A stretch of DNA of 64,000 bases. It comes from an uncultured Poribacteria bacterium. GTDB taxonomy: Bacteria; Poribacteria; WGA-4E; PCPOR2b. The notes beneath the pieces were generated by a model. The model ran no database searches and was not told the DNA's origin. It saw nothing but the letters and a program-made list of their open reading frames with translations. The stretch's first letter is position 1; the number at the start of each line of letters is the position of its first letter. The stretch spans positions 3,195,623 through 3,259,622 of the forward strand of contig OY282444.1 in the NCBI GenBank assembly GCA_958296125.1, read 5' to 3'. This document shows positions 6,926-53,614 of the stretch, one piece after another. The position numbers and the translations under genes are program-made.

Positions 6926-7648
6926 GTGAACCCTTGGATAAAAGAAAAAGGGGAAAAATACCTGCGCGGCTGGGACCGGCGGGCGACAATCGTCTTGCTC
7001 GGTGCATCTGTGCTATTGACGTTGTACCGTTTTATTGGACGCAGAAGGGTCTTTACCCAGCTTTTTGGGAAGTTCTTCATCCAGCATCCGCTCAGGAAGA
7101 TTTTTCCGTATTTTTACTGGTTCTGGATGAGCGCGGTAACACTGCTACTATTGCCGGTCCTTGTGGTCAAATTTGGCGTAAAAGACAAAATCCGCGACTA
7201 TGGCTTTCGCTTGACTCACAAGAAGTTAGGTTGGGGATTCGTCCTCGTAGGATGGTTGCTCATGCTGCCACTGATCATCCTAGCGTTACAGTTTTTCCCC
7301 GCTTTCCAGCAGAAATATCCGCTCTCCAACGTTGCCGGGACAAATTGGAAGGTGTTCATCGCTTATGAAATTTCTTATGGAGTTTACATGTTCTGTTGGG
7401 AGTTCTTCTTCCGCGGTTTCATGCTCTTCGGACTGGAGAAACGGTTTGGTAATTACAGCATTCTCATTCAAACCGTTCCGTTTGTCGTCAAGCACGCTAG
7501 CAAACCCTTTGCAGAAGCGATGGGGTCAATCATTACGGGGGTCGTGCTTGGAGTCCTCGCTCTGGAGACACGATCCTTTATCTACGGCGCGGCAGTCCAT
7601 TGGCTTGTCGCTATGTCGATGGATGTTTTCGCACTCGCGTGGAAGTGA
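6926..7648 (+). CDS. CPBP-family intramembrane protease homologue (CAAX protease-like)
   Basis: 240 residues, with about six or seven hydrophobic helices. The C-terminal half has the three CPBP/Rce1 motifs in order: WEFFFRGF (residues 158-165) in place of the canonical EExxxR, FVVKH (186-190) and HWLVAMSMD (225-233). The histidines and the second glutamate (Glu159) are present, but the first glutamate, the catalytic base in Rce1-type enzymes, is tryptophan (158). The fold is therefore safe but proteolysis is doubtful, or this is a subgroup with a shifted active site. The GTG start has GAGGAAACGAGGA upstream and a good promoter behind it. It seems to be a single-gene unit, with 424 bases before the next gene. 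Confidence 0.8.
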   Translation: MNPWIKEKGEKYLRGWDRRATIVLLGASVLLTLYRFIGRRRVFTQLFGKFFIQHPLRKIFPYFYWFWMSAVTLLLLPVLVVKFGVKDKIRDYGFRLTHKKLGWGFVLVGWLLMLPLIILALQFFPAFQQKYPLSNVAGTNWKVFIAYEISYGVYMFCWEFFFRGFMLFGLEKRFGNYSILIQTVPFVVKHASKPFAEAMGSIITGVVLGVLALETRSFIYGAAVHWLVAMSMDVFALAWK

Positions 7649-23027: not shown

Positions 23028-23133
23028 CTTGGCTCCGTTGCCCTGCGATCAGAGGTATGTTATGTAGGGGCAACCCTTGTGGTTGTCAATGTCGGGCAGG
23101 CACAAGACCTGCCCCTACTGAAATGAGGTGTTT

Positions 23134-24606
23134 ATGAACAATCAAGACGCTTTGACACAACGTCCTAATCTGCTGTACATCCATTCCGATCAGCACAACC
23201 CTGCCGTGACCGGCTGTTACGGTGATCCGTTGGTACAGACACCGAATCTGGACGGACTGGCAGCGCGAGGTGTTGTATTTGATAATGTCTACTGTCCCTC
23301 CCCGATTTGTGTCCCTTCGCGGATGTCGATGTTGAACGGACGCTACCCCCATGAAAATGAGGTTTGGACGAACAGCCACATCCTTGACTCCGGGAGTCCG
23401 ACTTTTGCACACGCAATGGGGGCGGCTGGCTACCGTCCCGTGCTGATTGGACGGATGCATTCGCTAGGACCGGATCAGCTGCACGGTTACGCTGAACGGC
23501 TGGTCGGAGACCACGGATCCAATTATCTCGGTGGGAAGGGAGTCGATCACGGGACGCTTACGGGCACGGCGGGCCCTGCACGTGTTAGCCTCGAAAAGTC
23601 AGGGCCCGGTCAAAGCGCGTATCAGGTTCATGATGAGGATGTAACCGTTGCGACAGTGGATTATTTGAACCGTCTCGGTGTCCGAAAGCGGGCAGGTGTG
23701 CTGGACGAACCGTTTAGCATCTCCGTCGGATTCATGCTGCCCCATCAACCTTTTGTGGCGCGGCGAGAAGATTATGACCTCTACAATGGGGCAATGACAA
23801 TGCCAAAACACCCTGAACCGTTCTCTGATGAATTGCACCCCTATTTTCGATGGTGGCGAGAGCGGTGTGGCATTGTTGAGGTTTCCGATGCGGAGATCCT
23901 CAGAGCGCGGACAGCGTATTGGGCGTTGGTCACGCGGATGGACCGGATGATCGGCGAGATCCTGGCTGCGCTCCAAGAAAATGACTTAGCGGAGAACACA
24001 ATTATCCTCTATATGTCCGATCACGGCGAGCAGGTGGGGGAGCATGGGCTTTGGTGGAAGCAGACCTTCTATGAGGATTCGGTGAAAGTTCCCACCATCC
24101 TTTCGTGGCCTGGTGCACTGTCCGAAGGCGTGCGATGTAATCGGGTGATTAGCTCTTTAGACCTGAATGCGACGATGCTGGACGCACTTGACGCGCCGGG
24201 CTTGCCAAATTCTCGCGGCAGAAGCGTACTCCCGCTTTTGCAGCGAGAAGGGGTGGCGTGGGAGGACATCGCCTTCTCCGAGTATTGTACCGACGAGGGC
24301 TGCTATCACCGGATGCTCCGAAGTGGCGATTGGAAACTGAATTACTACCATAACCAGCCGCCGCAACTTTTCAACCTAAAGGAAGATCCGGCTGAACTGC
24401 ACAATCGGGCGGGGGATGCAACGTGCCGAGAGGTCCGGGAGACATTGACACAGCAGGTGTTGGACGGTTGGGATCCGGAGGTCATCGCGGCGAAAATGGA
24501 AGCAAAACGCGCGGCTGCGAAGATTCTAGCGGATTGGGGGGGCCGAACGCAACCCGCAGAGCAGTACCGATGGAATTTACTGCCGGAAATGGATTATTTG
24601 GATTGA
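23134..24606 (+). CDS. Type I sulfatase (formylglycine-dependent)
   Basis: 490 residues. The sulfatase signature is present: Cys59 in CVPSRMSMLNGRYP is the residue converted to formylglycine. The metal-binding aspartate is in HSDQHN (about 17-22) and the second site is in MSDHGEQVGEHG near 290. Overall length and the DQH opening fit choline-sulfatase-like or glycan sulfatases. There is no signal peptide, so it appears cytoplasmic and would desulfate an imported molecule. The ATG at 23134 is chosen since GAGG lies five bases upstream; the GTG two codons earlier overlaps that site. It opens a run of seven same-strand catabolic genes. Confidence 0.9.
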   Translation: MNNQDALTQRPNLLYIHSDQHNPAVTGCYGDPLVQTPNLDGLAARGVVFDNVYCPSPICVPSRMSMLNGRYPHENEVWTNSHILDSGSPTFAHAMGAAGYRPVLIGRMHSLGPDQLHGYAERLVGDHGSNYLGGKGVDHGTLTGTAGPARVSLEKSGPGQSAYQVHDEDVTVATVDYLNRLGVRKRAGVLDEPFSISVGFMLPHQPFVARREDYDLYNGAMTMPKHPEPFSDELHPYFRWWRERCGIVEVSDAEILRARTAYWALVTRMDRMIGEILAALQENDLAENTIILYMSDHGEQVGEHGLWWKQTFYEDSVKVPTILSWPGALSEGVRCNRVISSLDLNATMLDALDAPGLPNSRGRSVLPLLQREGVAWEDIAFSEYCTDEGCYHRMLRSGDWKLNYYHNQPPQLFNLKEDPAELHNRAGDATCREVRETLTQQVLDGWDPEVIAAKMEAKRAAAKILADWGGRTQPAEQYRWNLLPEMDYLD

Positions 24607-24658
24607 GATAAGTAAAAGATCGAATCCATAATACTATCACTTTGAGGAGCTATGTATC

Positions 24659-25414
24659 ATGAATACCACCGAATCAACGCACAATATAGACCCATTTGAA
24701 CTACGCAAACTGTACAAATATCTCCGTGTCGCTGATGTCTGCGATGCGATGGACGGGGTTGGACACTTTGATACCGGGCTGATGTCCCCTGAAGTTCGGC
24801 CGCTCTGGCACGGCATGAAATTCTGGGGCATCGCCTTCACCCTTCGTTGCGTCCCTTCCAACCGTCCAATGTGGAAACTGGATACCACCGAAGAGGTTGT
24901 TCGAGCACACGGGCTCTGGTTTAACGAAGTTGGAAACGTCAGTTATCGCGATCAGATCCAGCAAGGACATGTCATCGTAACGGATACAGGCGGTGCGCGG
25001 GAAGTCGGTTTTTGGGGATCTGCTAATAGCTTGAACATGATTGCATCGGGCGCGGTTGGAATTATCACGGATGGGTACTGTCGTGATACAGATGAGTTGA
25101 TTCTCCAACAGACCCCGATCTGTTCCCGTGCGCGTGGACGCACGATTATTCCTGGCCGTATTCAGGCGGTGGAGGTCCAAACCCCCATCGGCTGTGGCGG
25201 GATACAGGTGCGTCCCGGCGATATTGTCGGCTGTGATGGCGATGGCGTGGTCGTTGTGCCAGTTGAACTTGCCGAAGAGGTTGCGGTGCATGCGCGGGCG
25301 GTGCTACTGGCGGACATGCGTGGACGGGCGGAACTCTATAAACGCTTGGACATGATGCCGGACGAAACGGTTGACCATGAAACCGTAGCGGCTTATTACC
25401 GCCAATTTGAATAG
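24659..25414 (+). CDS. RraA-like / HMG-CHA aldolase family protein
   Basis: 251 residues. The fold signature is seen as VADVCDAMDGVG (about 22-33), GSANSLNMIASGAVGIITDGYCRDTDEL (about 120-147) with the key Arg-Asp pair, and VRPGDIVGCDGDGVVVVP near 183-200. Family members include RraA (RNase E inhibitor) and class II aldolases cleaving 4-hydroxy-4-methyl-2-oxoglutarate or similar pyruvate-forming substrates. The Arg-Asp pair and catabolic neighbours favour a lyase, releasing pyruvate or oxaloacetate-type products. GAGGAGC precedes the ATG; the gene lies 52 bases after the sulfatase. True substrate unknown. Confidence 0.85.
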   Translation: MNTTESTHNIDPFELRKLYKYLRVADVCDAMDGVGHFDTGLMSPEVRPLWHGMKFWGIAFTLRCVPSNRPMWKLDTTEEVVRAHGLWFNEVGNVSYRDQIQQGHVIVTDTGGAREVGFWGSANSLNMIASGAVGIITDGYCRDTDELILQQTPICSRARGRTIIPGRIQAVEVQTPIGCGGIQVRPGDIVGCDGDGVVVVPVELAEEVAVHARAVLLADMRGRAELYKRLDMMPDETVDHETVAAYYRQFE

Positions 25415-25491
25415 AGAGGTCTACTGTTCCACACAGCATCTGCGGTATTAACCTAAGTTTCGACCTCTCAATCGTTAATGAGGAAAGACCT

Positions 25492-26667
25492 ATGAAGACA
25501 ACATATCGCGCAGGAGCGATCGGAAGGACGGGCAAGGGTGACTATGGCCACGGTCTCGATGTGGCATTTCAAATTCCGCCTAATTCCATTGAAGGGCTTT
25601 CGGAGGTAGAGTTCGTTTCTATTGCCGATTCAGACCCGGCGGGGCTTCGGGCAGCTGGGGAACGAACTGGGGCAGAGCGGCTCTACCTAGACTACCGTGA
25701 AATGCTGGAAAAGGAGAATCTAGACTTGGTGAGCGTCGGTCCTCGTTGGATCGACTGTCATGCAGAGATGGTCATCGCTTGCGCCAATGCCGGCGTGAAA
25801 GGAATTTTGTGCGAGAAGCCATTCGCTCGAACCCTAGCGGAAGCCGATGCCATGATGGAAGCCTGCGATCGTAACGGGGTGAGGGTAGCTGTCGCACATC
25901 GGCGGGCGTGCGCCTACGAACAACACGCTAAGAAACTGGTTGATGAAGGCGTAATTGGGAAAATTCAGGTGCTGCGCGGTCACGGCAAAGCCGATCACCG
26001 GGCTGGAGCGATGGATCTGATGGTGCTGGGAACGCATATAATGGATAGTATGCGATATTTTGCCGGTGCTGATGTCGCATGGGCGCATGGGCATGTGACT
26101 CAAGATGGTCAAGAAGTTACGGCTGCAGACATTCGAGAGGGAGATGAGGGCGTTGGATTGCTTGCTGGCAACGGTTTGGCGGCGTATTACGTCTTCGAGA
26201 ACGGAATCACAGCCCACTATGAATCGTATCGGGGGAAACCTTCCGGCAACCACTCGAGCAGCCGCTGGTTCGGATTTGAGGTCCATGGTACAGAGGGAAT
26301 TATCTCGCTGCGAAACTCACCTAGCGGAGAGATGTACCTCTATCCTCACGGTCTGTGGATTCCGGGGGAAGGGGAATGGGAACGTCTCCTTCTGGACGAG
26401 TGGGAGAAACGACCAGATGGTACCAGCCGATCAGGTCACGAGCAGATGCACCTTAGTAACCAGATGATTGTGAGAGAACTGATCCAAGCCATCGAGGAGG
26501 ATCGGAATGTGGTTGCCGTTTCCAGTGGAGCGGATGCACGCGCGGCACTGGAGATGATTATGGCAGTCCATGAGTCACAACGCCTGAGAACACGGGTATC
26601 CTTCCCGCTAGAGAATCGAGAAAATCCTTATGAAATCTGGCGAGGTGGGAAGCGAGATTTGTTGTGA
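25492..26667 (+). CDS. Gfo/Idh/MocA family oxidoreductase (2)
   Basis: 391 residues, longer than the first paralogue in this window. The N-terminal nucleotide fold is slightly unusual (YRAGAIGRTGKGDYGHGLD), with an insertion before the first helix. The motif LCEKPFART lies near 110, and the substrate-side half contains DLMVLGTHIMDSMRYF (histidine-aspartate-like pair near 185). Probably a cytoplasmic NAD(P)-dependent dehydrogenase of a sugar acid or polyol. GAGGAAAG stands before the ATG. It follows the RraA-like gene by 77 bases and precedes the dimethylformamidase-like gene by 261 bases. Confidence 0.88.
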   Translation: MKTTYRAGAIGRTGKGDYGHGLDVAFQIPPNSIEGLSEVEFVSIADSDPAGLRAAGERTGAERLYLDYREMLEKENLDLVSVGPRWIDCHAEMVIACANAGVKGILCEKPFARTLAEADAMMEACDRNGVRVAVAHRRACAYEQHAKKLVDEGVIGKIQVLRGHGKADHRAGAMDLMVLGTHIMDSMRYFAGADVAWAHGHVTQDGQEVTAADIREGDEGVGLLAGNGLAAYYVFENGITAHYESYRGKPSGNHSSSRWFGFEVHGTEGIISLRNSPSGEMYLYPHGLWIPGEGEWERLLLDEWEKRPDGTSRSGHEQMHLSNQMIVRELIQAIEEDRNVVAVSSGADARAALEMIMAVHESQRLRTRVSFPLENRENPYEIWRGGKRDLL

Positions 26668-26928
26668 TGCCAATTTCTTCGGCGGCAGTGATACCGACGA
26701 ACCCACCCTCAACACGAGGAAAATCGTTGACATAAAATTTAACGGCTGCTAAACTTTTACCTAGGGCTATTTAGTTTTCCGTTTTGGGTCATGCCCTGCT
26801 GTTCGTAGGGAACATCCATCGTTGGGCCTCCCCGGTCACGTCCCGATTTCATCGGGATTCTCGTGAAACGGAAGGTTCCTCTCGAACTTGCCCCTTAATA
26901 ATCAGAGCTCTGTTCTTGGAGGTATATT
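26668..26928. other. Intergenic region with a small repeat and hairpin
   Basis: No gene. CCTAGGGCTATTTAGTT (26760-26776) is repeated exactly at 55582-55598, and in both copies a T-rich stretch and a CCCTG follow. A perfect hairpin TCCCGAT-TTC-ATCGGGA is at 26841-26857; without a T-run it is a weak terminator at best. Confidence 0.5.
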
Positions 26929-28524
26929 ATGCTGATTGGATATGTCAGCGACGAGCGCTATGTAGCACTTCCCGATGTGTTGTTAGAATTTGTAAACGAA
27001 TCAGGTTCGTTTGAAGCCCGTTCGCGAGCGACGGGCGCGATCTACGCGGCCCTGTCCCCAGGACCTTACAAGGTAACGCTCTATAAACCCGGCTTCGGCG
27101 CGAAGAGCGTTAACATGACAGTCCGAGAAGGTCAACCTTATCAGTTTCGCTTGCTTTCGGACTGTTTGCTAGGGTATGCTTGGCCAAAGTGGGTTCGCTC
27201 CGGTGAGAAATCTGAATTCCGTGTTCATGCTGTCGAAGCGTATCAGCTTTCGTTGTGGCGATATGGGTTGCAGAAGGAGTTCATCCGAGACCTCGGCTGG
27301 CATGATGAGCATGGACCCCGCGCAACGATGCAAATCTCCCCTGACGGAGATTTCACCCAAACTGGCATCGAGTGGAACAAGTTTGGATATACGAATCCTC
27401 ATCACCTCCAGTTCGTCGAAGCACCGGCTCGAAGTGGGCTCTACTATTTTTACGCCAAGGGGGAGTCGGGTGAGTTCTTTTCCTTTCCGTGGATTGTTGC
27501 GCCGGCGAAGCCGCAGGCACCCATCGCCGTATTGGCTTCCAACATCAACTGGAACGCCTACAACAACTTCGGCGGTCGGAGTAACTATATCCATCCCGAT
27601 CAGTTTCCACCGACCCCCACCATCAACGCTCGACTCGATCTGAAGCGATACACCAACCGAGAACACAAGCACTTCGATGCCGACGAATATGCACCGCTGT
27701 CGTTTGATCGGCCCGAACTGATTAACTTTATCTCTGAAGATACGGAAATTACGGATCCAGTTGAGGGGCGTTCTGCCTGTCACGTCGCCCCCGCCGAATG
27801 GCGGCTCTTCGGTTGGCTGGAGCGCGAAGGGTTTGATTACGACCTCTACGCCGAGACACAGTTTCACCAAGGCGTTTTGAACTTGGAGGATTACAAAGTT
27901 CTTATGATCAGCACCCACCCCGAATACTGGTCAGCGGATATGTACTTTCGACTCAAAGCGTGGGTTTTCGAGGGCGGTGGCAAGCTGATGTATCTCGGAG
28001 GCAATGGCTTGAACTGTGAGGTCGAATTCCTTGACGAATACACGATGGTCGTTCACAACGAGAACTGTGGCAGCGGCAGCTTCACTACGCTGCAGGATGT
28101 TGGATTTGAAAGCCGATTCCACCTGCGTCACGAATCCGAAGCCAATCTCCTAGGCGTTGTCTGTACCGACACCGGCATTATGACCGGCGCGCCTTATCGG
28201 GTGATCGATGATTCTCATTGGATTTTTGAGGGTACAGGCCTGAAGAGTGGAGATGTATTCGGGGAAAAGAGCTTACATATGCGTTGTCCCGGCGGGGCTT
28301 CAGGCCACGAAATGGACAAGATCTCCGCAAGTTCTCCGAAGAACACTCAGCTGCTCGCCAAGGGGCTCAACCCCGACGATGGCGGTGCCGAAATCGTTTA
28401 CCACGAACCCGGTGGTGGTGGTGCCGTATTCTCTGTCGGCTCGATCACCTATCCCTGTTCTGTGTTAGTGGACGACACGATTTCAAAAATTACCACTAAT
28501 GTGTTGAAACGGTTCCTAGAATGA
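26929..28524 (+). CDS. N,N-dimethylformamidase large-subunit-like protein with N-terminal Ig-like domain
   Basis: 531 residues. Residues 1-80 resemble a carboxypeptidase-regulatory-like beta-sandwich (VLLEFVNESGSFEARSRATG then ALSPGPYKVTLYKPGF). Most of the rest matches the DMF beta-subunit C-terminal domain: SNINWNAYNNFGGRSNY, then WLEREGFDYDLYAETQFH, then VLMISTHPEYWSADMYF and KLMYLGGNGLN. In Paracoccus the enzyme uses a tyrosine/glutamate-bound iron to hydrolyse dimethylformamide; tyrosines in the corresponding places (Tyr-Asp-Leu-Tyr, Glu-Tyr-Trp) are seen here, but exact equivalence needs an alignment. GGAGG precedes ATG. The substrate is more likely some natural amide than DMF itself. 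Confidence 0.78.
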   Translation: MLIGYVSDERYVALPDVLLEFVNESGSFEARSRATGAIYAALSPGPYKVTLYKPGFGAKSVNMTVREGQPYQFRLLSDCLLGYAWPKWVRSGEKSEFRVHAVEAYQLSLWRYGLQKEFIRDLGWHDEHGPRATMQISPDGDFTQTGIEWNKFGYTNPHHLQFVEAPARSGLYYFYAKGESGEFFSFPWIVAPAKPQAPIAVLASNINWNAYNNFGGRSNYIHPDQFPPTPTINARLDLKRYTNREHKHFDADEYAPLSFDRPELINFISEDTEITDPVEGRSACHVAPAEWRLFGWLEREGFDYDLYAETQFHQGVLNLEDYKVLMISTHPEYWSADMYFRLKAWVFEGGGKLMYLGGNGLNCEVEFLDEYTMVVHNENCGSGSFTTLQDVGFESRFHLRHESEANLLGVVCTDTGIMTGAPYRVIDDSHWIFEGTGLKSGDVFGEKSLHMRCPGGASGHEMDKISASSPKNTQLLAKGLNPDDGGAEIVYHEPGGGGAVFSVGSITYPCSVLVDDTISKITTNVLKRFLE

Positions 28525-28586
28525 GAGATTACGCACGATGGTGTCCTTACGAAGAGGGACATCGCAATTTTCCGGAGGAGATGCAG

Positions 28587-29360
28587 ATGCACATCAACCA
28601 AGACGATTATAATCATTACTGGGAAAAGGGTTGGGTGGCTATCGAAGGTGTTTACAACCCCGACGAAGTTGAGCGCATCGCTCAAATTGCCATTGAGGTC
28701 AGTGACCGTGATATGACGCGCTCAATGGATCCCGATGCAGCCACGGATAAGGGTGTCGGTTACGCCGTTGATCGAGCGGAAGACGGTACAATTGCACCGC
28801 GCAAAATTGAGGGTCCTTTCCTCAAAGCACCCGCTTTCCAATCCTTTGTACTCGACCCCCGTCTCTCGCTCATCATCAAGGATCTTATCGGTGTGGAGCC
28901 GGCACTGGTCACCGATCAGATTTTCATGAAACCGCCGCATTTCGGTAGCGCGAAACCGTACCACCAAGATAATTACTACTTCAAATGTGATCCGGCTGAT
29001 CACGTCATCACCGCTTGGATTGCGATGGACGACGTAGATGAATCGAATGGCTGCCTCCGCTATATCGAAGGTTCACACAAGGGACCGGTGCTGCCACACG
29101 AAACCCCGGATCCAGATGAGCCATATAACCTTGTGCCTCCACCCGAACTGATCAATCTATCGAAAGAGGCACTGGCGGAGGTCAAAAAGGGCGGTGTCGT
29201 GTTTCACCACTGTAAGACACTGCATACATCTCATCGTAACGAATCCGACCGCTGGCGGCGCGGTTACGCTACACATTGGGCGAGCGCACAAACGACGTGT
29301 GAAATCGACACAATTAAGAACGGTTATTTTCAGCGAGACGATTTTCCGGGAACCAATTGA
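28587..29360 (+). CDS. Phytanoyl-CoA dioxygenase family protein (PhyH 2)
   Basis: About 257 residues from ATG 28587, chosen because GGAGGAG lies six bases upstream. An ATG at 28521 overlaps the stop of the preceding gene (ATGA) and would add 22 residues. The facial triad is KPYHQD (HxD) and the distal His in CKTLHTSHRN, with RRGYATHW offering the 2-oxoglutarate Arg. The domain is complete, of the non-mammalian PhyH branch. With the dimethylformamidase-like gene directly upstream it may oxidise an N-alkyl or side-chain carbon before or after amide cleavage, an inference from position only. Confidence 0.85.
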   Translation: MHINQDDYNHYWEKGWVAIEGVYNPDEVERIAQIAIEVSDRDMTRSMDPDAATDKGVGYAVDRAEDGTIAPRKIEGPFLKAPAFQSFVLDPRLSLIIKDLIGVEPALVTDQIFMKPPHFGSAKPYHQDNYYFKCDPADHVITAWIAMDDVDESNGCLRYIEGSHKGPVLPHETPDPDEPYNLVPPPELINLSKEALAEVKKGGVVFHHCKTLHTSHRNESDRWRRGYATHWASAQTTCEIDTIKNGYFQRDDFPGTN

Positions 29361-29393
29361 CATACTTCCACACTCTAAAGGGATGAGGTATTG
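29357..29393 (+). repeat. Short TTGACATACT element (copy 1), IS200/IS605-end-like
   Basis: Directly after the PhyH stop, TTGACATACT.CC..A..CTAAAGGG.T resembles the sequence at 42916-42952 and the palindromic ends of IS200/IS605 elements (pattern CATACTCCC, CCTAAAGG, GGGATTCTT). This copy is degenerate. No transposase is present. Confidence 0.35.
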
Positions 29394-29551
29394 CACGCAA
29401 TTTTTGGTAAGCTTCAATTTCTGATACCAATCAACATGAGAAAGGAAATGAACTTTGAGAGGTTAATAAATCGTTGCAACCCGAGGCGGAGCACTACAGT
29501 ATTCCCCTTGACAATGCAGGCCAAATGGCTGAATCTTGCAGGAGTGGCACC

Positions 29552-30487
29552 ATGAACTATCGGCGTTTGGGGCGGACCAACCTGCAAGTATCAGAGATTT
29601 CGCTGGGGACTGTAGAGCTAGGAATGGACTACGGCATCCCTGTGCAAGGCGAACATCGACAACCGTCCGAGGCGGATGCCGCCCGCTTACTCAACCGTGC
29701 GCTCGATTTGGGTGTCAATTTAATCGATACAGCGCGGGTTTATGGGGAGAGCGAAGCTATTATCGGGCGGGCCCTGAAATCGCGGCGGGAGGAATATATC
29801 CTCGCGACGAAGATTGCCGCCTTGAGTTGGGAGGGGTATACTGGCAAGGGATTGCGAGAGCATGTGGAAACATCAATCACCGAATCCCTGCGATCACTAC
29901 AGACGGACATCATTGACATCCTCTACATTCACAATGCCACTCCTGAGCTCATTCAACGTGGGGAAATTGTAGAGATTATGCAGCGGGCGCAACAGGTAGG
30001 TTACGCCTGTTTTATTGGCACAACCACCTATGGCGAAGCTGCACCGTTAGCCGTGTTAAAAGATGGTCGTTTCGACTGCGTGCAGGTTGCCTATAATCTA
30101 TTAGACCGTCAGTTTGAAGAACGGGTGTTGCCGCTGGCTAAAGAAAACGATGTGGGGATCGCGATCCGATCCGTCCTCCTGAAAGGCGCATTGACCTATC
30201 GCTACACACACCTTCCTGAAGAACTCCGCGAACTGCGGGCTGCGGTCGAGGCGGTAAACTCATTGTGTGGTGCACAAGCTAACAGTTTGCCGAAATTGGC
30301 TTACCGTTTCGTGCTCGCCCATCCTGCGGTTTCCACCGCGTTGGTGGGCACCAGTCGTGTGCATGAGTTGCAAGAAATCGTTTCATTTGCAGGGTGCGGT
30401 GCGCTTTCGCCGGAGCTGCTCAACGACATTCGAGAGATTGTCGTGCATCCGGACCAACTCAACCCGGGCACCTGGCCCTTCCAGTAA
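29552..30487 (+). CDS. Aldo/keto reductase
   Basis: 311 residues from ATG 29552 with AGGAG eight bases upstream; the open frame continues 26 codons further up but without a start signal. N-terminal MNYRRLGRTNLQVSEISLGT is typical of AKR. The tetrad is visible: Asp-Tyr in LIDTARVYGESE, Lys in ATKIAAL and His in LYIHNAT. The usual NADPH-binding end motif VGTSRVHEL lies near 280. It would reduce an aldehyde or ketone, or run the reverse. It lies between PhyH and the nitrilase-family gene in the same transcription direction, so it could process an aldehyde released by the dioxygenase. Confidence 0.9.
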   Translation: MNYRRLGRTNLQVSEISLGTVELGMDYGIPVQGEHRQPSEADAARLLNRALDLGVNLIDTARVYGESEAIIGRALKSRREEYILATKIAALSWEGYTGKGLREHVETSITESLRSLQTDIIDILYIHNATPELIQRGEIVEIMQRAQQVGYACFIGTTTYGEAAPLAVLKDGRFDCVQVAYNLLDRQFEERVLPLAKENDVGIAIRSVLLKGALTYRYTHLPEELRELRAAVEAVNSLCGAQANSLPKLAYRFVLAHPAVSTALVGTSRVHELQEIVSFAGCGALSPELLNDIREIVVHPDQLNPGTWPFQ

Positions 30488-30552
30488 ATAGGCGAACTTA
30501 TTTCCGACCTCGTGGAAATCAGGGCTCCGTTCACGTATAAATGAGGTGAAGC

Positions 30553-31380
30553 ATGTATAACTCAGTCAAGGTCGCGGCGATTTCGATTAAACCAAAGAAG
30601 TGGGATAAAGCCGCAAACGCTGACAAGATGGAGGCATTTTTCGTTGAAGCCGCCAAGGAACAGCCGCAGGTGATTTTGACGACAGAAGGGGTGCTCGAGG
30701 GCTATGTCGTCATGGAGGTCATCGAGAATCGGGAAACGGCGGAGAAGCTGCTTGACATCGCCGAACCGATTGATGGTCCCTATATTCGGCGTTTTCAGCA
30801 GCTTGCCAAACAGTTGGGGATTTGCCTCTGCTTCGGTTTTGCTGAACGTATCGCCGATGAGGCTTATAATTGTGCTGTATTTATCGATCACAACGGCGAA
30901 ATGTGTGGCAAGTATCACAAAACACAACTCGCTGAAGGCACCCATCCCTCTTGGAACTTTAACCGTATCGGCAAGACACTGCGCGCTTTTGATACACCGA
31001 TCGGTCGTGCTGGGGCGGTCATCTGTAATGACCGATGGAATCCGATGATTACGCGCACACTTGTCCTTGATGGAGCAAGGCTTATCTTCATCCCATCCTA
31101 TGGATCGAAGAGCAAAGGGCAAAACGAAACGGTGCTTGCACGGGCGCGGGAAAACGGAGTGCCAATCGTCGAAGCGAATGTCGGCATGAACCTCATTATC
31201 AGCAAGGGCGAGATTGTCGCTTACAAGTGGGGTAACGACCAAATTTCAACCGCGGTTATCGACATCCCCGAACCTCCATCGCAAGAGATAGCGCGTTATG
31301 CCGAACAGGAGTACCTGCAGCTGCAGAAGCCGGAGATGGAGAAACGCTATCGGAAAACGATGGAGAAGCTCACCCAGTGA
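30553..31380 (+). CDS. Nitrilase-superfamily carbon-nitrogen hydrolase
   Basis: 275 residues. The catalytic triad is complete: Glu45 in LTTEGVLEG, Lys123 in GKYHKTQLAEG and Cys158 in GAVICNDRWNP. The superfamily hydrolyses nitriles, amides, N-carbamoyl compounds or ureido groups. GAGGTGAAGC precedes the ATG. It is the last gene of the run that starts with the sulfatase; with a dimethylformamidase-like enzyme in the same run, two separate C-N bond hydrolases are present. Substrate class (aliphatic amidase or N-carbamoyl amidase) cannot be fixed from sequence. Confidence 0.9.
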   Translation: MYNSVKVAAISIKPKKWDKAANADKMEAFFVEAAKEQPQVILTTEGVLEGYVVMEVIENRETAEKLLDIAEPIDGPYIRRFQQLAKQLGICLCFGFAERIADEAYNCAVFIDHNGEMCGKYHKTQLAEGTHPSWNFNRIGKTLRAFDTPIGRAGAVICNDRWNPMITRTLVLDGARLIFIPSYGSKSKGQNETVLARARENGVPIVEANVGMNLIISKGEIVAYKWGNDQISTAVIDIPEPPSQEIARYAEQEYLQLQKPEMEKRYRKTMEKLTQ

Positions 31381-49795: not shown

Positions 49796-52700
49796 TTATT
49801 TGTCCTCCACAACGGCGATTTCCTCATCGGTCAAGCCGTAGAGCTGATAGACCACCTGATCAATGAGTGCGTCGGCCTGCTGAATGTGGGTGAGCAAGGG
49901 GTTGAGTTTGTCAAGGCTAGCTGTAAACTCGCGCCCCAACGATTCTTGGAAACTTCGCCTTGATAGATCAATGGGGATGGATCGACGGTTTTTCTTGAGG
50001 ACCCCAAGCAGTTCTTCAAGCGACAGATTGAAGTAAGCCTGAATCGCGGTCTTGTTCTTGAGTGCCTCAATTTCGACCCCGATTTCCCGTTCCAGCCAGC
50101 GCAGGAAGCCCCGAATCTCCTCCCCCTTGGCTTTGTTCAGCTCAACCATCTGCTCCGCGAGGAAGGCGAGCAGATCATGGACGAGGTCGGAACGCTCTGG
50201 ATCGGCGGCGAGATGGTGTTTCACAAAGCCGAGAACGCAGTCTACGCTCCCTTTGTTGAGGCAGAATTGGTAGAGGGTTTTGGCTTTTTCGAGTTGGCGG
50301 TCGCGTTCGTCGTCGGGGGTGGTGAAGTTGATGCGGCGGATGGGCAAATATTTCAAATACTCACGATATTCGATGTACCCTCCTCGAATAGCAATAGCTT
50401 CAAACAGCAGCTTATAGTACCAATCAAGGCATTTTGAGTTCAGCAGTGATGTCACATAGAGAAGTGTAAGATTGGAATGCTCGTTAGGAATGAGTGCGTA
50501 AATTGTATTCAGCGGGTAAAAGTAACTTTCATTCAGACCTAGATCCGGAACAGCCGTCAGTGACGGTGCAATCCGCTTGATGAGAATTTTCTCGGTTTCC
50601 AAGACTTCAAGTGATTTGGCATTGTATAGCTCGTTAGGTAGATAGTGAAGCCATTTACCTTCCCAAGCGATAGTGTATTGCTCAATATTTGCTCCATCTA
50701 GCATTTTTCGACAGGCCATTCTGACATCTTCAGGTGCTGAAGCATAATGCTCCTCATCCAGTACGAGCACCCGCCTTTTTGCTTGGCTACCGATACGGAT
50801 ACACTGCTCAATATCAAACATATCACTTAAACTGAATGACAATTCATCAAACCTCTGAATCAAATACCATAACCCATCTGAAAGACGCAGGCAGATCACG
50901 TTTTCGGGTGTTCGGTTGAACCTCGACTGAGGTATTTCGGTAGTAATTACCAACTCACTGCTGCTATCGCTGATTAACTCCGGTGCATCCGGTGGAACCC
51001 GCACAACGAGGATTTTGTGATCTGAGGATGGTGGCCCTTTTTTCACTATTGGCAAACATGGGTAAGTTGTGGGGTCTGGAAATACACGGCATTGAGAAAT
51101 ATCGACAAACTGTTCGATCTGTGTTTGCCCTAACAAGAAATTCCGAAGTGTTTTGCCATTAGCATAAATTGCAAATTTAATCGGTTGGATAAAACCGAAC
51201 ATTCCACTCCTTCGCAGCAAACGAAGCACCTGCTCGGCAAAAGTTATGTAAAGATCAAAACGACCAGTTGCTGTGGTGAATTGCTTCAACAGGTAATTAC
51301 GGAAGTCAGGCTCAATATTGGTAACACTCACATACGGCGGATTTCCTATCACCGCGTCAAACCCCGGATTGTCCTTCTCGCGTCCGTGCTTATCACGAAA
51401 GACTTCGGGGAACTCTATCTCCCAATGGAAGAACCGTTTCTCTGTCGCGATCTCCTGCGCCCGACGATAGGAAAGCAAATTTTCAAGGGCATTGGTATCT
51501 TTGGAGCGGAGGGCATTCAACGCTTGATGATAGGTGGCGCGGGAGACATCGTTTCCGAAGTAAACGCTCGTCCAGAGGTTCGCCACCCCTTTGTGATAGC
51601 GGAGCATCGTTTGGGCGATGTCTAATTGGTGTTCCTTCGCGTGGATCTGGTCGGCGGTGCGGCTCTCGGTCCCTTCGATCCAGAGATAGTGTCCGATGGC
51701 GGTGGCGACGGTGTCGGTGAAAGGGAAGGGCATGGCAAATTCTGTCTGGGTTTCGCTCGTTTTGCGGCGGCTTTTCTTCAGTTCCGGTAGATGTGACAGG
51801 TTCTCAATCTTCGCACCGATCAGGGAATTGCTACAACGGATGTGATGGTCGAGGAACGAGAGCGGCTCGCCTTTTGCCACTGTGTGGAGCCAGAGGGAGA
51901 GTTTTGCCAACTCCACCGCCATCGGGTTGAGGTCAACGCCATAAACGCAGGACTCGACAACGCGCCGCCGCCAGTATGCGAGCTCTGTCTCCTCGCTCGC
52001 CGTTTCGGTCATGAACGCTGTATCCGAGTGTGTAGTCAGTTCTTCGGCGAGATAATCGACAACGCCGACGAGAAAATGACCGCTCCCTGTGGCAGGATCG
52101 AGGATTTTGATCGATAGAATCTCATCAACGGTTTTGGCCTTACAGAGCGGGGCGAGTGTATTTTCGACGATGTAGCGGACGATGTAATCGGGGGTGTAGT
52201 AGCTCCCGGTCGCCTTCCGATCGCCCTTGTCGGTCAGGAGGTAGACCTCTCCTTTCGGATAGGCGGTCTCTTGATTGGAGGAGGATTTTGGCGCGACCGT
52301 CTCGCCCCCCTTCTTTGAAACGATGACTAGATCTTGGTCGGCAATTTGGGGCTGATATTCCAGCAAGCCTTCGTAGATATCTCCGAGATGGCGCACGTCA
52401 AGATCACGGTAGGCGATGCGTTCTCCCTTTGCTGTGCGTGTTAGGAGTTCGATAACCTGTGCCAGCGCATCGTTTCCAATTTCGTTGTCCTCAAGAAACG
52501 GGTGATACTCCGGATTGAAAAGTCCGCCGTTGTATTGCGGGATAAGATTACTCCAACCGTCGTTGATGAGTGCAAAGAGTCCGCGCAGCCGCGCCCAATA
52601 ATCGCTGATCGTCGGGATGATGAGATCCCCCCGATCCAGCGTTTCGTGAACCGTCTCCGCGAGGGCTGCAAGGCTATAACCTGCGGCGTAATCAGGATTT

Positions 52701-53614
52701 TCGACCGGCAGTAGCCCGCGACTTTCGGCGTAGAGAATAAACAGGACACGGTATAACAAAATCAAGCAGTTGGTGTGGATCTCATCGAGCGGCGGGTTGG
52801 CTTTGTCGAAACGGTTGCGGGGGAAAGCAAGGAAGCCGCCGATGAGCAGGCGTAGGGCATCGTAGACACGGTTCTTCAGGTCATCGGAAACGGCGACGGT
52901 GTATTGCTGACTCTCCCCCAATACAAGATCGAGGAATGACCTCCCGCTCGGATCGGGGGTGAAGGCATCGCACCGAAAGAGGCAGTAGAAATAGCGGAAG
53001 GTCTCTAGGGCTCCGTTGTCAGAGAGCAGTGCGGCGAGGTCTACTTCGTAGCAGCTATCGAGCCGATAACTGGTCTGACGGTGGTAGAGTCGCCATTGTC
53101 TACCGTTGGTCAAGATGCCCCAGTCTTTAGCCGTGCCTCGCAGATAGAAGTCGATCTGGTAGTTCGGATTTTGATTGTTGAACGGGTCGCCTCCGCCCTG
53201 CGCTTTCCGATCCAGGTTGCGTGACCACGCCTTGGCATCGCCGACAGCGAGGGCGGTTTTGAAGAACTGATTGGTGTTGACGTGAGACAGTGCCGCATTG
53301 TGGGCATCGCTCGATGGGAAGAGGGCGTAATCGGGTCGTTTGGTCCCCTGCGATGTTTGGAGTGCCGGCTGCACCTCGAAAACGTGCCCGAGCTGTTCTA
53401 GTAGCGGTTGGATGAATTCGTGTTCGGTTTGCGCCTCGTTGAGATGTTCTGCGTTGGGTGCGACGGTGTCGAAGAGTTCCTTGATTGCTGCGTAATCGGA
53501 TTCGATGTTGGGTGTATTGACCCACTGCGGTTGGTCGACGATGCGGGAATCGAGGTAGTAGTTTGAAAAGAGCGATTGATTTTTAACAGCGTTGGGTAGG
53601 TTTTGAGTGTTCAT
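49796..53614 (-). CDS. Single-chain type IIG restriction-modification enzyme (Eco57I-like)
   Basis: 1272 residues. N-terminal PD-(D/E)xK-type nuclease part: KRPDYALFP near residue 96 and LAVGDAKAWSRN near 125. The adenine-methyltransferase centre has motif I LDPATGSGHFLVGV near 508 and motif IV IGNPPYVS near 758, between which lies VYGVDLNPMAVELAKLSLWL. The C-terminal third is the target-recognition part, ending in a charged helical tail. In type IIG enzymes one polypeptide cuts and methylates, needing S-adenosylmethionine. The gene has no separate S or R partner and its flanking genes are metabolic. Recognition site unknown. ATG 53614 lacks a strong Shine-Dalgarno. Confidence 0.85.
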   Translation of the reverse strand: MNTQNLPNAVKNQSLFSNYYLDSRIVDQPQWVNTPNIESDYAAIKELFDTVAPNAEHLNEAQTEHEFIQPLLEQLGHVFEVQPALQTSQGTKRPDYALFPSSDAHNAALSHVNTNQFFKTALAVGDAKAWSRNLDRKAQGGGDPFNNQNPNYQIDFYLRGTAKDWGILTNGRQWRLYHRQTSYRLDSCYEVDLAALLSDNGALETFRYFYCLFRCDAFTPDPSGRSFLDLVLGESQQYTVAVSDDLKNRVYDALRLLIGGFLAFPRNRFDKANPPLDEIHTNCLILLYRVLFILYAESRGLLPVENPDYAAGYSLAALAETVHETLDRGDLIIPTISDYWARLRGLFALINDGWSNLIPQYNGGLFNPEYHPFLEDNEIGNDALAQVIELLTRTAKGERIAYRDLDVRHLGDIYEGLLEYQPQIADQDLVIVSKKGGETVAPKSSSNQETAYPKGEVYLLTDKGDRKATGSYYTPDYIVRYIVENTLAPLCKAKTVDEILSIKILDPATGSGHFLVGVVDYLAEELTTHSDTAFMTETASEETELAYWRRRVVESCVYGVDLNPMAVELAKLSLWLHTVAKGEPLSFLDHHIRCSNSLIGAKIENLSHLPELKKSRRKTSETQTEFAMPFPFTDTVATAIGHYLWIEGTESRTADQIHAKEHQLDIAQTMLRYHKGVANLWTSVYFGNDVSRATYHQALNALRSKDTNALENLLSYRRAQEIATEKRFFHWEIEFPEVFRDKHGREKDNPGFDAVIGNPPYVSVTNIEPDFRNYLLKQFTTATGRFDLYITFAEQVLRLLRRSGMFGFIQPIKFAIYANGKTLRNFLLGQTQIEQFVDISQCRVFPDPTTYPCLPIVKKGPPSSDHKILVVRVPPDAPELISDSSSELVITTEIPQSRFNRTPENVICLRLSDGLWYLIQRFDELSFSLSDMFDIEQCIRIGSQAKRRVLVLDEEHYASAPEDVRMACRKMLDGANIEQYTIAWEGKWLHYLPNELYNAKSLEVLETEKILIKRIAPSLTAVPDLGLNESYFYPLNTIYALIPNEHSNLTLLYVTSLLNSKCLDWYYKLLFEAIAIRGGYIEYREYLKYLPIRRINFTTPDDERDRQLEKAKTLYQFCLNKGSVDCVLGFVKHHLAADPERSDLVHDLLAFLAEQMVELNKAKGEEIRGFLRWLEREIGVEIEALKNKTAIQAYFNLSLEELLGVLKKNRRSIPIDLSRRSFQESLGREFTASLDKLNPLLTHIQQADALIDQVVYQLYGLTDEEIAVVEDK

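Follow-up and report, generated by a model that had tools for sequence, protein, structure and literature searches.

Seven genes for catabolic enzymes lie side by side on one strand in an uncultured, sponge-symbiont Poribacteria bacterium, and the question raised by this locus is whether they form a single pathway centred on a dimethylformamidase-like (DMFase-like) amidohydrolase, as a sequence-only reading of the DNA had proposed. The window, meaning the whole stretch of 64,000 nucleotides that was analysed, lies at 3,195,623-3,259,622 on one contig of 5.16 Mb, the closest named relatives being Candidatus Poribacteria MAGs.

Gene content and gene starts

All seven ORFs were found intact on the + strand, at the expected places and with their families correctly named. 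Each protein matched its Pfam family well over the cut-off, and the active-site motifs expected for each family were found in all seven (Table 1). The sequence-only reading had also named a second C-N hydrolase in the block, and this was borne out by the Glu-Lys-Cys triad motifs of the nitrilase-type protein.

Two gene starts were corrected. The PhyH ORF opens at 28521, with a 4-base overlap with the DMFase-like gene; because similarity to relatives begins about 20 residues into the ORF, the start is likely M21 or M23 (28581/28587). The aldo/keto reductase (AKR) gene most likely starts at ATG 29552 rather than at the ORF-opening TTG 29474. For the sulfatase gene, an alternative start at ATG 23134 is also possible. 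With the corrected starts, the intergenic gaps are about 52, 77, 261, 56, 191, and 65 bases. The same-strand run of the block is not special, because + strand genes span positions 6926 to 32639 and thus extend past the seven genes.

A promoter candidate before the DMFase-like gene (26727, TTGACA-17-TAAACT) was rejected, since it sits in window-specific sequence that is missing from relatives. Elsewhere in the window, positions 49796-53614 encode a large Eco57I-type restriction-modification protein with a TaqI-like specificity domain.

Table 1. Features of the locus, with positions in the window
Feature	Position	Strand	Evidence
Sulfatase, type I, formylglycine type, choline-sulfatase-like without choline clamp	23128..24606	+	PF00884, 157 bits
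RraA-like / HMG-aldolase-family lyase	24659..25414	+	PF03737, 101 bits; GxxRD motif at 139
Gfo/Idh/MocA-family dehydrogenase	25492..26667	+	PF01408 (GFO_IDH_MocA), 63 bits; EKP at 108
DMFase-like Fe(III) amidohydrolase (predicted)	26929..28524	+	PF20254 (DMFA2_C), 186 bits
PhyH-family Fe/2-oxoglutarate dioxygenase	28581..29360	+	PF05721, 128 bits; HQD at 128; distal His/Arg motif
Putative scar region, antitoxin leader-like sequence abutting last codons of ParE-like toxin	29400..29500	+	PhyH-AKR gap alignment
Aldo/keto reductase (AKR)	29552..30487	+	PF00248 (Aldo_ket_red), 170 bits; Asp, Tyr, Lys, His motifs
Nitrilase-superfamily C-N hydrolase	30553..31380	+	PF00795 (CN_hydrolase), 113 bits; E45, K123, C158 motifs

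Catalytic residues and domains of the DMFase-like protein

In 2020, one pollutant-degrading amidohydrolase was reported to hold its iron by two tyrosines and one glutamate (PMC7686228). The iron ligands of the Paracoccus dimethylformamidase are Y399, Y440, and E521, and mutants of its H519, N547, and E657 are inactive (PMC7686228). The DMFase-like protein of the window matched DMFA2_C (PF20254) with 185.8 bits against a cut-off of 27, and a sequence search with it retrieved N-acetyl-(R)-beta-phenylalanine acylase (E 3.2e-19) as well as dimethylformamidase. In an alignment of the window protein with the acylase, the dimethylformamidase, and 66 homologues, Y211, Y241, and E332 corresponded to the three Paracoccus ligands, in that order, and H330, N359, and E461 to H519, N547, and E657. 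Five of these residues (Y211, Y241, E332, H330, and E461) were invariant among the 66 homologues, and N359 was conserved in 64 of them. The comparison with the Paracoccus enzyme that the sequence-only reading had suggested therefore came out in its favour.

The protein consists of a transthyretin-like domain (residues about 1-75), an Ig-like region (about 80-190), and the catalytic DMFA2_C domain (about 190-531). For an AlphaFold2 model (mc7aff85e74a5; pLDDT 83), in which the iron-site loop 212-225 has low confidence, the best PDB fold matches were the acylase 8i59 (E 3.5e-21) and the DMFase 6lvb (E 1.4e-20). The N-terminus of the model matched the transthyretin-like domain of carboxypeptidase D, so the added N-terminal beta-sandwich noted earlier is real and is a transthyretin-like / CarboxypepD_reg domain. 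No segment corresponding to pentraxin domain II was detected in the 531-aa protein by profile, model, or fold comparison. At the locus, no extra gene separates the DMFase-like gene from the genes on either side, and the enzyme is apparently a single chain. The residues kept place the protein in the catalytic family, whereas the absence of the pentraxin domain sets it apart from dimethylformamidases sensu stricto. It is best read as a compact Fe(III) amidohydrolase that is probably cytoplasmic.

Spread of the DMFase-like family

Homologues of near-constant length and 63-75% identity were found in Latescibacterota, Planctomycetota, Gemmatimonadota, and other phyla, and 41 aligned members have more than 100 invariant columns in common. 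Within Poribacteria, the gene is present in only 8 of 85 genomes. In the gene tree, planctomycete, Latescibacterota, and Gemmatimonadota sequences cluster with the window's family (99/95), separately from another Poribacteria copy, G016. This placement suggests transfer, although G016 is a long branch. Taking Poribacteria, Latescibacterota, Planctomycetota, Gemmatimonadota, and others together, this version of the protein is 63-95% identical and keeps a constant 530-residue design. Such identity and constancy across phyla imply a common natural substrate, none being named in the literature searched. A search for reports of DMFase-like proteins in Planctomycetes found none.

Nearly all Poribacteria genomes examined in the order also carry another DMFase-like paralogue, which is shorter (about 460-510 aa) and about 30% identical (e.g. 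L002, G000:C1:3549122-3549622) and looks near-core in that order.

Gene order in relatives

In three sister species of Poribacteria (G001, G003, and G004), all seven genes are collinear with the window. In two further relatives (G002 and G005), whose contig begins inside the block, the genes on the contig are collinear as well. Synteny within the genus reaches beyond the block to the flanking MFS, CopD-like, and lipoprotein-like genes, and collinearity with G001 covers at least 20 genes. Because of this extent, genus synteny cannot single out the block, and gene order conserved within one genus should not be taken as pathway evidence.

The gaps between the same genes vary among the relatives from about 40 to 650 bases. 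Between the PhyH and AKR genes, G001, G002, and G004 carry a ParE-like toxin gene (PF24732 ParE_like, 48 bits in a relative) with a small antitoxin-like ORF, and the corresponding interval of the window (29361-29551) looks like a junction left by loss of this toxin-antitoxin pair, or like its empty site. Counting in favour of a block, the toxin-antitoxin pair is the sole foreign insertion within it, and the linkage has outlasted an insertion of 9.4 kb immediately before the sulfatase gene.

Outside the genus, the orthologues of the block genes are scattered. In G007, which belongs to the same family and order, they lie on separate contigs of a fragmented assembly (910 contigs), except for the sulfatase and RraA genes, which are adjacent at 82-84% identity; its DMFase-like gene has no flanking Gfo/Idh gene within 2.6 kb upstream and no PhyH gene within 172 nt downstream. 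The Gfo/Idh, PhyH, and nitrilase genes of G009 and G012 are far apart or on separate contigs. None of the six partners was found at the orthologue level in 75 DMFase-like loci of other phyla (63-75% identity), so the co-occurrence of the DMFase-like gene with the sulfatase and nitrilase genes anticipated by the sequence-only reading did not appear there. The linkage that it expected in close relatives thus holds within the genus, where the genes are collinear, and breaks down outside it, where they are unlinked. Linkage beyond background synteny, as a dedicated seven-gene cluster would have, was not seen among the genus relatives, in the same family, or at the 75 loci. PhyH genes do adjoin the DMFase-like gene in Latescibacterota (L037-L041), and this was rejected as the same pairing because the identity is only 25% (E about 1e-4), which points to convergence.

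The adjacency kept in G007, with the rest of the genes dispersed, leaves some room for smaller units, namely a two-gene sulfatase-RraA unit that would act by desulfation followed by a lyase step, and a recent, genus-level pairing of the DMFase-like and PhyH genes. We consider such an arrangement rather unlikely, since RraA orthologues are absent from another Poribacteria family (f3), in which the sulfatase orthologue (73-81% identical) stands in another context, and since the DMFase-like and PhyH genes are not adjacent in G007.

Recurrent partners of the DMFase-like gene

Across phyla, a different set of genes recurs beside the DMFase-like gene. An MLE-subgroup enzyme of the enolase superfamily was found within 4 kb at 16 of 76 loci, downstream on the same strand at 14 of these, often less than 100 bases away and overlapping or abutting in two cases; all 16 matches lie within the innermost 46% of the flanking sequence. 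The other 60 loci have no adjoining MLE gene. An MFS transporter was found near the DMFase-like gene at 13 loci; its nearest relatives are D-galactonate-type carriers, and by sequence it resembles an anion/sugar-acid-type transporter. In the cultured Singulisphaera acidiphila (locus L069), the gene that comes after the DMFase-like gene is that of the MFS transporter. On the DMFase-like gene tree, the MLE label requires 10 changes and the MFS label 9, with at least eight forced by supported branches in each case. Because both labels are scattered over the tree, these linkages are not one clade's accident.

An Amidohydro_2 protein recurs by the DMFase-like gene in one lineage, and in Fuerstiella (L091 and L094), two tandem DMFase-like genes, the transporter, the Amidohydro_2 gene, and the MLE gene constitute one cluster. 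The two genes of the Fuerstiella tandem lie at L091 10001-13162 and L094 10001-13186, and the second copy is only 52-53% identical to the window protein. In the genome of the window, adjacent MLE and Amidohydro_2 orthologues occupy 1.125-1.127 Mb (MLE at G000:C1:1126157-1127251), at a distance of 2.1 Mb from the DMFase-like gene; this MLE shares 60-69% identity with ten of the linked MLEs, and the Amidohydro_2 protein is 70-71% identical to that of the Fuerstiella cluster. In family f1, the distribution of the Amidohydro_2 orthologue coincides with that of the DMFase-like gene (7 of 7), which one gain could explain; the orthologue is missing from G006 and G008 of this family (best match 45%).

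The MLE partner has the motifs KxK, DxN, EQP, ADES, and KxGG and is nearest, in NCBIfam and the PDB, to muconate/chloromuconate cycloisomerases. These features, together with a transporter like sugar-acid/anion carriers, would suit a DMFase-like enzyme that cleaves a lactone or cyclic ester/amide formed by an MLE-type cycloisomerase and not a linear amide, in the manner of muconolactone-type routes. We regard this as improbable, since the catalytic domain has two characterised structural relatives and both cleave amides, and since the MLE partner scores under every NCBIfam cut-off (for TIGR02534, 253 bits for L144 and 221 for L098 vs 335) and its subgroup also contains epimerases and racemases.

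QueC and QueF are the enzymes that make and reduce 7-cyano-7-deazaguanine. One or both of their genes stand beside the DMFase-like gene, in place of MLE, in one large Latescibacterota-Gemmatimonadota clade (L057, L065, L066, L067, L070, L073, L075, L076, L078, L080, L088, L093, and L108). This linkage was rejected as functional, since it is confined to one clade (4 changes). An OSBS-like MR/MLE gene near Gemmatimonadota/Latescibacterota loci, lying beyond CoaA, was likewise rejected as a partner, since it belongs to a different subfamily and is convergent.

Other contexts of the neighbouring genes

The type I active site of the sulfatase is complete, with the CxPxR motif and metal site present (C61-V-P-S-R65, D21, Q22, D298, and H299) and the metal and catalytic residues of 6fny kept. 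Choline-O-sulfate was rejected as its substrate because the choline clamp is missing. In a large part of family f3, the sulfatase and nitrilase genes are near-core, and their contexts there are unrelated. A conserved neighbourhood of that family (L193, L194, L196, L197, and L203) contains the sulfatase orthologue, a different PhyH gene, an amidase-signature protein, and a gene judged by eye to be SMP-30-like. This combination of sulfatase, dioxygenase, and amide hydrolase is the best remaining hint for the theme of the sequence-only reading. A literature search for Poribacteria with sulfatase and phytanoyl found no report.

The nitrilase-type protein had no equivalog assignment and no PDB relative at E 1e-18 or better. 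Its orthologue (73-82% identical) occurs in other contexts in most of the Poribacteria examined. It lies in a conserved cluster with MR/MLE-like and Gfo/Idh/MocA genes in f3, and between creatininase-family and RraA-family genes in f2 (L134-L137 and L145-L147 for the two families). The histories and contexts of the sulfatase, RraA, Gfo/Idh, PhyH, AKR, and nitrilase genes in other families are separate; the sulfatase and RraA genes may be a genuine pair, and all six could still have a common pathway within this genus.

A single pathway in which all seven enzymes desulfate, oxidise, and cleave the amides of a sulfated, N-acylated, sponge-derived compound would account for catabolic enzymes on the same strand in an order kept in the genus, and for the similar chemistries of the f3 neighbourhood, but it is very doubtful given that linkage of the partners is absent from the same family and order and from all 75 other loci, that genus synteny is not block-specific, and that relatives carry a toxin-antitoxin pair inside the block.

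Proposed role of the DMFase-like enzyme

We therefore find it reasonably probable that seven separate catabolic enzymes stand side by side in one Poribacteria genus, and that the DMFase-like Fe(III) amidohydrolase works with a dispersed organic-acid pathway. The six adjoining genes are probably no more than neighbours, because the recurrent partners of the DMFase-like gene elsewhere are a different enzyme set, which in this genome lies 2 million bases away. The most likely functional partners are the MLE-subgroup enzyme, the Amidohydro_2 protein, and the organic-anion MFS importer.

Carrying the mechanism over from the Paracoccus DMFase, the iron held by Y211, Y241, and E332 would activate water, with E461 acting as the base, N359 stabilising the oxyanion, and H330 assisting; the activated water would then attack an amide carbonyl, or possibly a lactone. 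The enzyme probably acts on an N-acyl or amide acid. The MFS transporter would import the acid and the MLE would abstract a proton alpha to a carboxylate. Together, the DMFase-like enzyme, MLE, Amidohydro_2 protein, and importer may serve the uptake and breakdown of an N-acyl or amide-bearing organic acid.

A wider proposal is put forward tentatively, as one that may or may not hold: the compact, transthyretin-fused iron amidohydrolases with two Tyr and one Glu would be a widespread and unusually conserved family, transferred between phyla, that serves an undescribed pathway with MLE, Amidohydro_2, and an organic-anion transporter. The recurrence of these partners turns the substrate of the DMFase-like enzyme into a testable question.

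Comparison with known systems

Among the neighbours, the best sequence relative of the sulfatase is choline-O-sulfatase (6fny, TIGR03417), with which it shares the formylglycine Cys, the metal ligands, N75, H201, and K309. In contrast, the choline clamp of 6fny (W129 and H145) and its Asn146 gate are replaced by G136, P150, and A151, and the protein does not reach the TIGR03417 equivalog cut-off (304.9 vs 433.45 bits). The MLE partner has the enolase-superfamily fold and the KxK...DxN...E...D...K pattern in common with the muconate/chloromuconate cycloisomerase group (TIGR02534); it scores below all NCBIfam cut-offs and may be an epimerase or a dehydratase.

The nearest solved relative of the DMFase-like protein, by both sequence and fold, is N-acetyl-(R)-beta-phenylalanine acylase (8huy, 8i59, and 8i5a), which has about 775 aa, another N-terminal part, and about 18-19% identity to the window protein by structure alignment. 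With the Paracoccus DmfA2 (6lvb; PMC7686228), the protein shares the catalytic DMFA2_C domain, the Tyr/Tyr/Glu ligands, and the His, Asn, and Glu residues, whereas whole-chain alignment with 6lvb gives only 15% identity. Dimethylformamidase has a 15 kDa small subunit, and no small-subunit gene was seen adjoining the DMFase-like gene of the window. The window protein has 531 aa and not 762; its N-terminus is transthyretin-like, and the pentraxin domain II of the three-domain large subunit is missing.
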